A DNA stretch of 26,818 bases from a bacterium. Its GTDB lineage: Bacteria > DRYD01. A model generated the notes under the pieces. The model did not search any database, was not told the origin of the DNA, and worked only from the letters and a program-made list of their open reading frames with translations. The stretch spans positions 1 through 26,818 of the forward strand of contig JAUQQQ010000015.1 in assembly GCA_030549815.1 (NCBI GenBank). Direction: 5' to 3'. The position numbers and the translations under genes are program-made. Below are positions 14,272-26,312 of this stretch, piece by piece. Position 1 is the first letter of the stretch. Each line of letters starts with the position of its first letter.

Positions 14272-14295
14272 GATTTCGAAAATAATTTTGAAAAT

Positions 14296-14340
14296 AAGAA
14301 GGGGCGCTCGAAAAGGAAAGAGCGCCCCTTCTTCTGTTTT
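14296..14340. terminator. Strong bidirectional terminator between map and the protease gene
   Basis: A perfect 14-bp stem (14296-14309 with 14320-14333, core GGGGCGCTC) encloses the ten-base loop GAAAAGGAAA. It is followed on the plus strand by CTGTTTTTTCTT. On the minus strand the flank reads T-rich too, so the hairpin can also end the convergent protease transcript, whose stop is at 14354. Confidence 0.93.
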
Positions 14341-14353
14341 TTCTTAATATTCC

Positions 14354-15730
14354 TTAAGAAGGATTCCCAGGATTTGGTTGAGGATTTGGAGAAGGAAGCA
14401 TACTTAAGGCTTCCTTGACTGCCTCATAAACATTTACCAACCCTGCACCTTGATCGTATTGATCATAAGGTTTGTTATCAGTTGGATCAGTCTTATCAAG
14501 TTTAATAGCATGTTTCATTAATAATTCTTTAACTTGTTGTTGAGTAAGATTAGGGTTAGCGTTAAGAATAAGGAGCATAGCACCAGCAACACCTGGTGTT
14601 GCCATAGATGTTCCAGAAATTGCTACATACTTTCCGTCTTCTGTCATCGGTATTTTCCCTTGTTTTCCTAAGTTATATAATTCACTTCCTTCACTAACGG
14701 GAGCCCATATTTTGACACCAGGCATAGCAACATCAGGTTTCAATTTAGAAGCTTCATCAGGTGCATTCTTAACAGGTCCTCTGGATGAAAACCTAGCTAT
14801 TTCATCATCACTGAAATCTTCAGTTTTGTTATCTTGGTAAGCAGCAACGGTAACAGCATTAGGAGCTATTGCGGGCGTTCCAACTGTATTAGGATAAGGA
14901 CCACTGTTACCTGCAGCTATAGCAAAATAGACACCATCTTGGATTGCTTTTTCAACGGCCAAAGCCAATGGATCCTGGTTCCATGGTTTAAAAGCATATC
15001 CTCCTAAACTCATGTTAGCAACAACTTTTTTACCAGTTTGCTTAGCCATCTCAACAACTTTATTTATCCCTCTGATGATATCTGATGTATATCCAGATCC
15101 TTGATCACTTAGCACTTTAATACCCCATATTTCAGCTGCAGGAGCTAATCCACCAAATTTTCCATCTCCAGCAGCTATACCAGCAACATGTGTGCCATGC
15201 CCATGTCCATCATGTGGTTTATCATGACCCGCACTTGTTGCATCGAAATAGTAAGTTAACCTATTACCGAAGTTATCGTGATTAGCCACACCTGTATCTA
15301 TAACAGCTAATACTAATCCTTGCCCTTTATATCCCATTTCCTGAACTTTATTTGCACCTGTAATTTCGAGTGTAACATTCTTTTCAGGAAGTCCCTGCGT
15401 ATCTCTCTTTTCTACTTCTTCCTTCATTTTTTTCAACTTTTTGGCTTGTTTTAATTCCTCTGGTTCAACAAGTCCTACTTTTTCATCTTTAAATGCGTTC
15501 ATTCCCTCGGGTAAAGCCTTATATATGTTAGGTAAAGCATCTTTATTAACTTCAGCTAAGACAAATCCATTTCCAAGATCTTCAACAACTCTTCCTGCTT
15601 TCAATTCCGTGAGCAATTTTTCTATCTTTGCTTTATCCCCTGTAAATATCATTCTTTCTAAATTAGTTTTAGTTACTTTAGATTTATGAGCAGCCTTAGG
15701 TCCTCTACCTATTGGATTAATGTTATTCAT
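14354..15730 (-). CDS. Subtilisin-family serine protease without a signal peptide
   Basis: A peptidase S8 enzyme of 458 aa. The catalytic triad is Asp145 (AVIDTGV), His181 (GHGTHVAG) and Ser375 (SGTSMATP), with oxyanion Asn275 (AAGNSG). Residues about 20-95 look like an inhibitor I9-type propeptide (MIFTGDKAKIEKLL, then FVLAEVNKDAL), followed by a Lys/Glu-rich linker (91-115). The C-terminus is a Pro/Asn-rich tail (PNPQPNPGNPS). The N-terminus (MNNINPIGRGPKAAHK) is polar and not a signal peptide, and the perfect SD fixes this start. It is therefore either an intracellular subtilisin or exported by a non-classical route. Codons are richer in G/C than those of the neighbours, suggesting high expression. 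Its 73-nt upstream gap may hold its own promoter. Confidence 0.92.
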   Translation of the reverse strand: MNNINPIGRGPKAAHKSKVTKTNLERMIFTGDKAKIEKLLTELKAGRVVEDLGNGFVLAEVNKDALPNIYKALPEGMNAFKDEKVGLVEPEELKQAKKLKKMKEEVEKRDTQGLPEKNVTLEITGANKVQEMGYKGQGLVLAVIDTGVANHDNFGNRLTYYFDATSAGHDKPHDGHGHGTHVAGIAAGDGKFGGLAPAAEIWGIKVLSDQGSGYTSDIIRGINKVVEMAKQTGKKVVANMSLGGYAFKPWNQDPLALAVEKAIQDGVYFAIAAGNSGPYPNTVGTPAIAPNAVTVAAYQDNKTEDFSDDEIARFSSRGPVKNAPDEASKLKPDVAMPGVKIWAPVSEGSELYNLGKQGKIPMTEDGKYVAISGTSMATPGVAGAMLLILNANPNLTQQQVKELLMKHAIKLDKTDPTDNKPYDQYDQGAGLVNVYEAVKEALSMLPSPNPQPNPGNPS

Positions 15731-22369: not shown

Positions 22370-23449
22370 CTATTTAAATTCAACAATTTCCTGCTTTATT
22401 GGTCCTATTTCTTCAATAGATAATTTTACTTTGTCGGAAGAGATGTTTTTATCATATTGTATGTCGTATTTAGCGAAATAAACAAATCCTGTAACAGTCC
22501 CTCCTGGTGGGACAGCGGTATCTAAACCAACATCGTATTTTACTGCCTTATACCTTTTTCCATCGCTTCCTATTAAATAAATCTTGTAAGCAAATGGAGA
22601 AAGGGGAAGTGGTTGATTGTAAGTATTAAATACGGTTATCTCAAAAATAAAGAAATCGTCTATATTTGTAGAACTTACCAAATTCTTGTAATAATTTTCG
22701 AGGTAATTTTTATCATAGATTGCCTCCTTGTATCCATGCAAGATAGTCCTTGCTTTTGCTAATTCATCATTAAGATAAACTATTTGAATATAGGAGTCAG
22801 GTATATTTTGATTATTCATTTGTGGCCCCTTAACATTTTGGAAAGTATTCCACAGATTTCCCAACAAATTGAACAAGAAAAAATTAGATACAGCAGAAGA
22901 AACTCCTGAAACTCCTGAAATTTCGGAAAGTAATCTGTAATTTTCATATTGATTATAAAGTAGGAAAACTTGGGTAGGGTCTATGATAACACGAGTTGGA
23001 ACATTGGAGTTAGGACCAAATTTTATTACCTTAGTATTCTTTGCCAAAACCTGACTATAGTATTTCAATCCATCATTGAGTTTATCATAAGGTAAACTGG
23101 ACGAAACATTCGAAACATTGTAAACATTAATATCCTTAGGTTTAACATCAACTTCTGCTTTACCTTGTGAATAAACAAAATATAGAGTATCACCGGTATT
23201 GATTTGTCCTTCAACTATTGAAAGCAAAACATTTTTATTTTCATCTATTTGTTCAATTTTTACTTTACCAACTTTTTGGTTAGATCTATAAACATCCAAA
23301 ACATCACCTTGTTTTAGTACTACATAAACTTTTCCATAAAAGTAATTATCAACTTGTTTGTATATAACACCAACGATGTTATAATCTTGAGCAAGAGTGA
23401 GGAAAGTGATTAATATAAAGATTAAAGCAATGATAATAATTTTTTTCAT
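22370..23449 (-). CDS. Secreted protein of unknown function, 359 aa
   Basis: Residues 1-20 are a clear signal peptide (MKKIIIIALIFILITFLTLA, then Q), so the product goes to the periplasm or cell surface. About 22-95 is a beta-rich domain (VYVVLKQGDVLDVYR, VGKVKIEQIDENKNV) reminiscent of FlgT/CsgG-side assembly or SH3-like modules. About 265-359 is another beta-rich region (FEITVFNTYNQPLP, VPPGGTVTGFVYFAKYD) resembling DUF4352-type immunoglobulin-like domains. The middle is Asn/Ser-rich. GGGGGTG seven bases upstream (23457-23463) supports the start. It is the first gene of the leftward six-gene unit and is divergent from the porin gene. The function is unknown. Confidence 0.8.
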   Translation of the reverse strand: MKKIIIIALIFILITFLTLAQDYNIVGVIYKQVDNYFYGKVYVVLKQGDVLDVYRSNQKVGKVKIEQIDENKNVLLSIVEGQINTGDTLYFVYSQGKAEVDVKPKDINVYNVSNVSSSLPYDKLNDGLKYYSQVLAKNTKVIKFGPNSNVPTRVIIDPTQVFLLYNQYENYRLLSEISGVSGVSSAVSNFFLFNLLGNLWNTFQNVKGPQMNNQNIPDSYIQIVYLNDELAKARTILHGYKEAIYDKNYLENYYKNLVSSTNIDDFFIFEITVFNTYNQPLPLSPFAYKIYLIGSDGKRYKAVKYDVGLDTAVPPGGTVTGFVYFAKYDIQYDKNISSDKVKLSIEEIGPIKQEIVEFK

Positions 23450-23541: not shown

Positions 23542-23559
23542 TATTGATAAATATCAATA
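23542..23559. promoter_or_regulatory. 8+8 palindrome in the divergent region, candidate operator
   Basis: TATTGATA and TATCAATA are exact inverted repeats with a two-base centre. Each strand presents TTGATA, a fair -35 hexamer, so the site could be an operator or paired -35 elements for the divergent porin and secreted-protein genes. No convincing -10 box is seen at ideal spacing. The region is very AT-rich, so chance is possible. Confidence 0.35.
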
Positions 23560-23624
23560 AAAATTAAATATTTTTCAGGTTGGTTTTTAAGAAGGAGAAA
23601 AGAAAAATAGGTTTAATAAATAGA

Positions 23625-23702
23625 TTTAGAAGGTGGAGTGTGGGGTAAGAATAGGAAGAAACGAAGGAAAGTCCTATCTTGAGCCCACGCGCACCTTCTA
23701 AA
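23625..23702 (+). ncRNA. Structured 5' leader hairpin of the porin mRNA (candidate cis-regulatory RNA)
   Basis: Three stacked helices form one 78-nt hairpin. The outer helix is 23625-23635 with 23692-23702 (11 perfect pairs, TTTAGAAGGTG). After a 2x1 internal loop the middle helix is 23638-23644 with 23684-23690 (seven pairs, one G-U). After a 2x3 internal loop the inner helix is 23647-23656 with 23672-23680 (nine pairs, one bulged A). The 15-nt apical loop is purine-rich, AGAAACGAAGGAAAG. The stems are far richer in G/C than the flanks. The structure ends eight bases before the porin SD. I do not match it to a known riboswitch. It could be an mRNA-stabilising leader, a protein- or ligand-binding element, or a small RNA. 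Confidence 0.65.
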
Positions 23703-23710
23703 AATAAACA

Positions 23711-23718
23711 AAAGGAGG
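23711..23718 (+). promoter_or_regulatory. Shine-Dalgarno site of the porin gene
   Basis: AAAGGAGG, eight bases before ATG at 23727. It decides the start: the frame is open back to 23679, but only the 23727 start gives a proper signal peptide and leaves the leader hairpin untranslated. Confidence 0.9.
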
Positions 23719-23726
23719 TCGTGCGT

Positions 23727-26312
23727 ATGTGGCGTATAGTGTTGTTAGCTGCGTTGCTAACAATGCTGTCCGTGGGTATCTCAAAAGCCGCTCCATTTCC
23801 CGATGTCCCTGATACCCACTGGGCAAGCAGTGCTGTCCAACAACTCAAAGCAAAGGGTGTCCTTGAAGGATATCCCGATGGCCTATACAGAGGTAAAAGA
23901 GCTGCATCAAGATACGAAATGGCAATGGTCGCTTCCAGAATCGTCGCTAAATTAGAACAACTCGAAGCTTCATTGCCCGATTTCAGCCAATTCGCTACTA
24001 AGGAAGAATTGGCAGCAGTCAAAAGAATGGTTGATTTGAATAGCCAAAAAATCGAAGAACTCGGTGTTAGAGTCGATGCACTCGAAAAGAAAGTCGGCGA
24101 ATTAGATGAAAGACTATCCAAATTAGAAAAGATAACTTTCACAGGTTGGTACGACGCTGTATATGTTAACCAAGGTTTAGAAGCTGACCAAATCGGTAAC
24201 GTCACAGTTGGGAGAAGCACAACAGTAGGTAACCCCGCAAATCAAAGACTGTTCTGGTTTGAACCAACAGCAGCATACTCAACAGCTTTAGTAGGTTGGA
24301 ACAATGAAGAAGTTAAACCTTGGAACAGTTACGTATTTACAAAAGGATGGAACTCTTTACCTATTTCTACAACTGTTGGAATGAACGATACAGGATACAT
24401 CTACATACACGGAAAAATCGCAGATAACTGGAGAGTTAAAGTTACAATAAGCGGTGAAAACTTGTTAGCTCAAATGGGCAATAAAAATCATGAAGTATCT
24501 GTTCCTACTGGCTTCGCATTCTCAACAGTAGGAGAAGGTAATTGGATAAGACCATATTCTAAAAAATCTCAACTAAGATACAACAGTATTTACCAACAAT
24601 CACTTGGCCCTAGCCCTCTTCCTTTCTTAGTTAGCATTGTTCCAGATAATGGTCTATATTTTGAAAGTATAAAAATATGGAACAGTGATAAGAATTTCGC
24701 AGTAACCTTAGGTGGTTTTAATCCACAATTAGTTGATAAATCTGTTTTTGCAGGTCCAGAAGTCCCATTCCTATGGAATGGCCCTGAAAATTTTGCAGTT
24801 GATGGTTTTCATATTTACAACAAACCAGCTCAAACAATATTCGGAACAAATTTCGAATATGAAATATACGGCGGTAATATAGCTAAGTATGACTTTGTAT
24901 CAGGTTATGTTGGAGTTAATCTTAATCCTGTTCGTCTCCAAGGCTTAACTCAAAGAACGTTTGGATTAACAACCAAATTTAATTTCCAAAAAGGACACTT
25001 TAGAATAGGATACAATGTTACCGAAGACTCTCAAGAAGAATTTAATCAATTAGGAAACTTTAGATTTTCTGGGGTCCAATTTTTAGCAACAGGTCCATAT
25101 TTGGGATTAGGATGGAGCTGGATGCAACAAGATGATCCAGTTTTAACAAATCCTCCATTCAATAGTAAATACGGAAGTTCAGCTGGACGATTTGTAATGG
25201 GTCCACAGCATCAGTCAACAATTGGTGCTGATTTTAAATATAACATAAATGAAAGATTCTCTTTCGAAGGCAGGTTTGCAACAAGCACATACCAACCAGT
25301 TAAAGAACTTGGACTTGATACAAGTGGATCAATGTTCAGTGCAAAATTACATGGAACCTGGGGTAATACAAATGAAGCTGAATTCGAAAAAGATGGTCTA
25401 AAAACAAAAAGCGGACACTTCTCAATTGAATACCTCTCCGTTGACCCAGATTTCTCTCCATTCTTAGGTATAAATGGTGCATATTATGCTCACGCTAATA
25501 ACTTCTTCGTGGGTTCATTCGGTTATTATGATAACCTCTATTGGGCACAATTACCATACCCTGTCTACTTATCAGCATTCTCAGATGTTGTAACATACAG
25601 TGTGCATGATGCAAAAATGTATCCTAATAACAGAGAAGGATTAAGGTTAAATGTTCAATACAAATTCTCTGATGCTTTCTTAGGATGGGCTTCATATGAA
25701 TCATTAACACAAAAAGAAGCAGCAAGAGATATGGATGGTGTTGGTGGTGGAACAATTAAATGGGGTTGGTATGAACCTATTTTCGGAACTAATACAAATG
25801 ACTTAGGACTAAATGCAAGAGATGTTGTAAAGAAAGGAACAATCAGGACATTTAACGTCGGATTTAACTATAAATTCCAAAGCGGAAAATTTGACTTTAC
25901 AGGACAATACTACAATACAGATGTAGCAAGAAAAATACCAGCAAATGCTAGGAATTTTGATGATAACATAGATTACACTGTTACTGCATTTGATGTAATG
26001 TTCAGATATATGCCTAATGAAAAATGGACGTGGCACATTGCTTACACCTCTGTTCAATCTGATGGAAAATTCATGGATTCACAAGATACAGCAACTTATC
26101 AATCTGAAAACGCAAGCTGGGAATCAAATGCACTAAGAATTGGAACAGATTGGAAAGTTAGCGACGATGTACATTTCTTCGCTAACTATAGATTCATTAA
26201 TTTTGATACAAAAACATTCGAAAACGATAATGGTACATTAACAATAGACAATGGAGATTGGAAAGGAACCCAAATGTGGTTCGGTGCCAGAATTAAATTC
26301 GGACAAAAATAA
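23727..26312 (+). CDS. Outer-membrane porin with an N-terminal SLH domain
   Basis: An 861-aa exported protein. The signal peptide is about residues 1-20 (MWRIVLLAALLTMLSVGISK). An SLH domain follows at about 21-75 (FPDVPDTHWASSAVQQLKAK then GYPDG and SRYEMAMVASRI), which anchors such proteins to the cell-wall polymer. A coiled coil (about 80-130, VRVDALEKKVGELDERLSK) spans the periplasm. The rest is a beta-barrel with alternating aromatic strands (FNVGFNYKFQSGKFDFTGQYY) ending at WFGARIKFGQK. This matches the SLH-coiled-coil-barrel porins of Thermus, Thermotoga-like and Negativicutes bacteria. A strong SD, a structured leader and its own terminator suggest an abundant protein. The first ~140 codons prefer C-ending codons much more than the barrel part does. 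Confidence 0.92.
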   Translation: MWRIVLLAALLTMLSVGISKAAPFPDVPDTHWASSAVQQLKAKGVLEGYPDGLYRGKRAASRYEMAMVASRIVAKLEQLEASLPDFSQFATKEELAAVKRMVDLNSQKIEELGVRVDALEKKVGELDERLSKLEKITFTGWYDAVYVNQGLEADQIGNVTVGRSTTVGNPANQRLFWFEPTAAYSTALVGWNNEEVKPWNSYVFTKGWNSLPISTTVGMNDTGYIYIHGKIADNWRVKVTISGENLLAQMGNKNHEVSVPTGFAFSTVGEGNWIRPYSKKSQLRYNSIYQQSLGPSPLPFLVSIVPDNGLYFESIKIWNSDKNFAVTLGGFNPQLVDKSVFAGPEVPFLWNGPENFAVDGFHIYNKPAQTIFGTNFEYEIYGGNIAKYDFVSGYVGVNLNPVRLQGLTQRTFGLTTKFNFQKGHFRIGYNVTEDSQEEFNQLGNFRFSGVQFLATGPYLGLGWSWMQQDDPVLTNPPFNSKYGSSAGRFVMGPQHQSTIGADFKYNINERFSFEGRFATSTYQPVKELGLDTSGSMFSAKLHGTWGNTNEAEFEKDGLKTKSGHFSIEYLSVDPDFSPFLGINGAYYAHANNFFVGSFGYYDNLYWAQLPYPVYLSAFSDVVTYSVHDAKMYPNNREGLRLNVQYKFSDAFLGWASYESLTQKEAARDMDGVGGGTIKWGWYEPIFGTNTNDLGLNARDVVKKGTIRTFNVGFNYKFQSGKFDFTGQYYNTDVARKIPANARNFDDNIDYTVTAFDVMFRYMPNEKWTWHIAYTSVQSDGKFMDSQDTATYQSENASWESNALRIGTDWKVSDDVHFFANYRFINFDTKTFENDNGTLTIDNGDWKGTQMWFGARIKFGQK

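Follow-up and report, generated by a model that had tools for sequence, protein, structure and literature searches.

A conserved three-helix leader RNA and its putative role in the translational control of an SLH-domain porin gene

The analyzed stretch of DNA, called the window throughout (26,818 nt), contains a gene for an SLH-domain outer-membrane porin of the OmpM/SlpA type. The protein has one SLH domain (Pfam SLH, E 3.9e-9), and its best PDB relatives are 8bys and 8bym, two SLH-domain proteins that we take to be Veillonella OmpM, and 7zgx (SlpA). Of the seven genomes analyzed from the phylum, six have a match, and each appears to carry a single copy. Among the five relatives with the gene, four have it broken at contig ends with differing break points (G001:C106, G002:C33, G003:C112/C125 and G004:C6/C8; loci L003-L006, L018 and L019), which suggests strain-level variation in the source populations. 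The divergent neighbor of the porin gene (22370-23449) encodes a protein that matches no Pfam family and whose N-terminus resembles a signal peptide. Elsewhere in the window, strong hairpins lie between converging genes at 14291-14380 and are likely to form a bidirectional terminator. The porin gene starts 24 nt downstream of a large predicted RNA hairpin, and the features of the gene and its leader are as follows:

23544..23572, forward strand: predicted sigma-70-type promoter, TTGATA - 17 nt - AATATT, 9 of 12 matches
23589..23602, forward strand: purine-rich tract, AAGAAGGAGAAAAG, near the predicted mRNA 5′ end, from the alignment of four leaders
23625..23635, forward strand: 5′ strand of helix P1, UUUAGAAGGUG, from the fold and the alignment of relatives
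23638..23644, forward strand: 5′ strand of helix P2, GUGUGGG, from the fold and the alignment of relatives
23646..23656, forward strand: 5′ strand of helix P3, UAAGA-a-UAGGA, from the fold and the alignment of relatives
23658..23670, forward strand: conserved apical-loop core, GAAACGAAGGAAA, general form G-N-AAC-N2-4-GG-NN-A
23672..23681, forward strand: 3′ strand of P3, UCCUA UCUUG (UCCUAUCUUG), from the fold and the alignment of relatives
23684..23690, forward strand: 3′ strand of P2, CCCACGC, from the fold and the alignment of relatives
23692..23702, forward strand: 3′ strand of P1, CACCUUCUAAA, containing the anti-SD ACCUUCU (23693-23699)
23710..23719, forward strand: Shine-Dalgarno (SD) motif, AAAAGGAGGU, in which AGGAGGU (23713-23719) is complementary to the anti-SD
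23727..26312, forward strand: SLH-domain outer-membrane porin (OmpM/SlpA type; Pfam SLH PF00395), the controlled gene

A sequence-only reading of the window had proposed a hairpin of three stacked helices at 23625-23702, upstream of the porin gene. The sequence was inspected and folded over 300 nt upstream of the gene. Folding of the region 23600-23740 with RNAfold yielded the same structure, with a minimum free energy (MFE) of -41.9 kcal/mol compared with -23.3 +/- 3.2 kcal/mol for 200 dinucleotide shuffles, none of which was as good (z -5.83). The three helices agreed with the proposal, and the number of base pairs had to be corrected from 27 to 28 (11 + 7 + 10, with a bulged A23651). The hairpin also ends eight bases before the SD, as had been stated, at 23702 with the SD AAAGGAGG starting at 23711. 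By itself, the 78-nt hairpin has a free energy of -36.2 kcal/mol, and its stability lies at about the 0.01th percentile of 49,148 90-nt windows drawn from a 247-kb sample, rather than the whole, of the same genome. The apical loop is AGAAACGAAGGAAAG (23657-23671). A scan for terminators found no terminator-like site, and the GC-rich stem is not followed by a U-tract, which rules out an intrinsic terminator or attenuator. In Rfam 15, the window matched no family at the gathering score or at E <= 5, except for a meaningless match of a plant miRNA on the other strand, and 17 other loci gave no relevant match at gathering or permissive thresholds.

The predicted promoter at 23544-23572 would place the start of transcription near 23579, upstream of the hairpin, which would thus lie within the transcript. 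The promoter score alone is no better than expected from shuffled sequences; the relatives G005 and G004 both have such an arrangement, TTGAC/TATATT, at the matching position. The purine-rich tract reads AAGGAGGATAAAT and AGGGAGGATAAAT in relatives; it is SD-like and resembles either a standby site for ribosomes or the SD-like tracts that stabilize mRNAs at the 5′ end. A perfect palindrome (TTGATAAATATCAA, 23544-23557) that resembles an FNR/CRP-family box overlaps the predicted -35 element, and near-palindromes occur at the matching site in G004 (TTGACAAAAGTCAA) and G005 (TTGACTTTTATCAA). This site could serve to control transcription of the porin gene or of its divergent neighbor. A small upstream open reading frame (AUG-UAA) is present in two relatives only and is not kept in the window, and it was dropped as a leader feature.

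Next, conservation within the phylum was analyzed. The 5′ end of the gene is intact in the window and in three relatives (G005, G004, G003), and the three-helix hairpin was found at the matching position in all four leaders, where its 3′ end lies 24-39 nt upstream of the start codon. Whether homologous leaders conserve the pairing had been set in advance as a test of the hairpin, and the four leaders do keep it, with compensatory changes. The stems are almost wholly different, and 16 of 31 aligned pairs show two-sided changes in a structural alignment made by hand; this alignment leans on the structure, and each of the four leaders also folds so independently. Bulges and helix lengths vary between the relatives. 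The apical loop, in contrast to the stems, is retained in the form GRAAC-NNN-GGAAA in all four cases, with the cores GAAACGAAGGAAA (twice), GGAACAGUGGAAA and GAAACUAAGGAAA, and the core of the window occurs only once in its genome. A covariance model of the four leaders (R1) found no further significant copy in the seven genomes; the best other match had an E value of 0.17, and weak extra matches in G005 and G000 fell in DNA that is AT-rich or resembles coding sequence and has no hairpin of this kind.

The loop core was also found outside the phylum. An initial pattern derived from the four leaders was sought in distant SLH-gene leaders, and the class was then defined by the core G-N-AAC-N2-4-GG-NN-A, a closing helix of at least 4 bp and a position within 200 nt of the start codon. 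The window itself falls into this class: its core GAAACGAAGGAAA is closed by a 6-bp helix and lies 69 nt upstream. Thermaceae and other taxon names were deduced from protein sequence, for the Thermaceae from SlpA, the best PDB relative of the family being SlpA 7zgx (2.4e-38). The core recurs about 40-115 nt upstream of SLH/OmpM-type genes. It is present in 31 of 32 Thermaceae leaders, a result that the initial, narrower pattern had all but predicted. The parallel with Thermus S-layer leaders drawn in the sequence-only reading was borne out at the sequence level, as 29 of 30 Thermaceae slpA leaders carry the loop core in a hairpin of the form GAG-GAAACGCGGMAA-CUC or similar, and the remaining leader (L084) differs in one variable base only. 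Among non-Thermaceae SLH-gene leaders, 27 of 72 have the core with a stem of at least 4 bp, compared with 18 of 3090 control blocks from the same loci and none of 104 antisense leaders (Fisher 2e-35), an enrichment that comes from sequences that are not independent and is somewhat optimistic because the general pattern was refined on the data on which it was scored. The phyla of G010 and G021 yielded further matches, as did a broad sample of 386 genomes. Since the genomes of the window phylum, of the Thermaceae and of the phyla of G010 and G021 belong to separate groups, the core spans at least four phyla.

The closing helix covaries: in 14 sequences, 92.9% of its positions were paired, compared with 55% after shuffling and 38-52% after sliding, and two-sided changes were observed at all six pairs. 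The MFE of the leader alone did not separate distant SLH genes, but the loop core did. A spacer of 2 nt is found in 21 of 31 distinct core forms, whereas the window phylum has 3 nt. A covariance model with N in gap columns (R2) performed poorly in a genome-wide search. Model R3, built from other phyla only and including no 3-nt-spacer form, gave the window hairpin a low score (9.5 bits, E 2.3, rank 5 in the window) because of the 3-nt spacer in its loop, and the link of the window to the wider class rests on the gene, the position and the core motif. The core is absent from many SLH leaders, including those of some paralogues, and nearly half of the sampled families lack it. In one such family (f142, L149-L151), SLH genes occur in 5-8 copies per genome and their leaders have an SD hairpin (UUUCCU-AAA-GGGGGAAA) and no core, possibly representing a different leader type. 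The Thermaceae slpA leaders (L055-L081) contain, beside the core, a second, upstream hairpin (GGAYGCAAGG...CCUUGCRUCC), and the arms of their SD hairpin covary (ACCCU/GGGGGU, ACCUCC/GGAGGU).

The 3′ strand of P1 connects the hairpin with translation initiation. In the window, all seven positions of ACCUUCU (23693-23699), which lies wholly within P1, can pair with AGGAGGU (23713-23719), one of them as G-U. In other leaders the two elements change jointly, e.g., GAUCCCCC/GGGGGAUC (L131), CUCUCCU/AGGAGAG (L142), GCCUCCU/AGGAGGC (L146), CCUCCUUGG/CCAAGGAGG (L132) and UUUACCUCCUU/AAGGAGGUAAA (L002). Over 31 leaders, the hairpin 3′ strand paired with its own SD at -12.2 kcal/mol and with the SDs of other leaders at -9.5 kcal/mol, and the preference for the own SD persisted in five draws with one leader for each of 19 families (permutation p <= 0.0007). 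The match is weaker in G003 (5 nt), in the G010 family and in the G021 phylum (3-4 nt). Formation of the hairpin and pairing of the anti-SD with the SD are mutually exclusive. The SD-open state is favored by 4.7 kcal/mol (ddG) in the window and by 0.1 to 6.2 kcal/mol in relatives, the two states being equal in G005. The SD is mostly unpaired in all four leaders of the phylum from 37 to 75 °C, and an RNA thermometer is ruled out, as the SD is already open at 37 °C and remains so.

These results support the earlier proposal of a cis-acting control element of the gene for an abundant envelope protein, with pairing in all four leaders of the phylum and anti-SD evidence that points to a translational switch rather than to stabilization of the mRNA alone. 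We hypothesize that the hairpin is a two-state translational control RNA of the SLH-porin mRNA, in which the anti-SD covers the SD when the hairpin is lost, and regard this as probable from the computed hairpin, its compensatory conservation, the presence of the core at a matching position before the same gene in different phyla, and the covariation of anti-SD and SD. In the on state, the P1-P2-P3 form would lock the anti-SD into the stem and leave AGGAGGU open, so that the porin would be made. In the off state, with the hairpin unformed or its base open, ACCUUCU would pair with AGGAGGU and initiation would be blocked. Since the window strongly prefers the open state at 37 °C, the off state would need help. 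The apical core GAAACGAAGGAAA could be the recognition site of a factor, either a small ligand or an RNA-binding protein, that shifts the balance. Transcription in the hairpin form, interconversion of the two states, binding of the factor and the direction of the response are what we infer from these data. Judged from sequence, the window leader is best read as one that would work like a translational riboswitch or a protein-controlled leader.

As to the nature of the factor, a metabolite riboswitch, with the core as the aptamer for a small signaling molecule, is a tentative option: it was proposed earlier for the SLH motif (Stav et al. 2019, PMC6429828), and the anti-SD architecture would suit an expression platform. 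However, about nine conserved nucleotides in a loop of 12-14 nt on a variable stem are few for a metabolite aptamer, and a core this compact is equally typical of a protein-binding hairpin. Recognition of the core by a protein, be it the porin system itself, an envelope regulator or Hfq, may likewise be entertained with some reserve. A compact loop core on a free stem would resemble protein-binding hairpins, Hfq is present in all four genomes tested, and Thermus thermophilus slpA was reportedly found by Castan et al. in 2001 to be controlled through its 5′ UTR. Against this, the gene for CsrA, the best-known binder of GGA hairpin loops, was found in none of the seven genomes of the phylum, some of them incomplete, in a search for which control genomes were positive, so CsrA is an unlikely binder of the AAGGA loop.

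The same leader could also serve expression without any regulation, the hairpin stabilizing the mRNA of an abundant protein and trapping an anti-SD-like strand so that the SD stays open. The mostly unpaired SD of the four leaders, a product that is an abundant envelope protein and the conserved 5′ purine tract, similar to stabilizing SD-like tracts, would fit such a constitutive leader, but it would leave unexplained why different phyla retain a small loop core on fully rewritten stems and why the stem contains an anti-SD that matches its own SD, and we consider it unlikely. A role as an RNase III processing site or another element of RNA decay is very improbable: a 28-bp helix could be a plausible substrate, but the conserved part is the loop and not the duplex, and bulges and helix lengths differ between relatives.

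We know of no mechanism by which cells set the amount of OmpM/SlpA. We see even chances that many diderm phyla, among them the window phylum, that of Thermus and its relatives and those of G010 and G021, control the OmpM/SlpA tether of the outer membrane by one ancient cis-regulatory RNA, which consists of an anti-SD stem and the 12-14-nt apical core and senses the state of the envelope, the published SLH motif being only the Synergistota/Firmicutes part of this RNA. In most diderm Terrabacteria, the tethering of the outer membrane to the cell wall is attributed to proteins of the OmpM/SlpA type (PMC10628300). If true, an RNA element common to their genes across phyla would represent an old, common control of envelope anchoring. 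With the core present in Thermus slpA leaders, this orphan class of RNA now includes a genus that is amenable to genetics, and the ligand or protein can be sought there directly.

Among known systems, the SLH motif is the closest. This riboswitch candidate was described from Thermovirga lienii and judged to be cis-regulatory without a known ligand; its 80 examples come from Synergistaceae, Clostridia, Negativicutes and metagenomes, and about 60% of them precede SLH-domain genes (Stav et al. 2019, BMC Microbiol 19:66, PMC6429828). The sequence-only reading had recognized no known riboswitch; this is true of Rfam families, but the published candidate probably covers the hairpin (PMC6429828). The SLH motif and the window share a structured leader RNA, the cis position and the place before an SLH-domain gene. 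In contrast to the reported hosts, the window belongs to a different phylum and has a 3-nt loop spacer, and Thermaceae, other taxa and the SD covariation are added. The window hairpin class is probably the SLH motif, matched on gene association and cis position. New here are the window phylum, Thermus slpA, the phylum of G010 and the anti-SD covariation. The main text of two later surveys with a similar pipeline mentions neither SLH nor Thermus, and a limited literature search returned nothing on the structure of the slpA leader.

The leader of Lactobacillus slpA, likewise an S-layer gene, also has a stem-loop with the SD left open, the protein family being unrelated. Translational riboswitches with a sequestered SD resemble the window in that the anti-SD pairs with either the switch stem or the SD, whereas the conserved part of the window is one small apical loop with no known ligand. 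The 5′ UTR of Thermus slpA is similar to the window leader in three respects: the core GAAACGCGGMAA is closed by GAG/CUC within a longer hairpin, the distance to the start codon is similar, and the SD lies beside an anti-SD. Unlike the window, it has two hairpins and a 2-nt spacer, and its anti-SD is situated mainly in a separate small SD hairpin (ACCUCC-AAA-GGAGGU).
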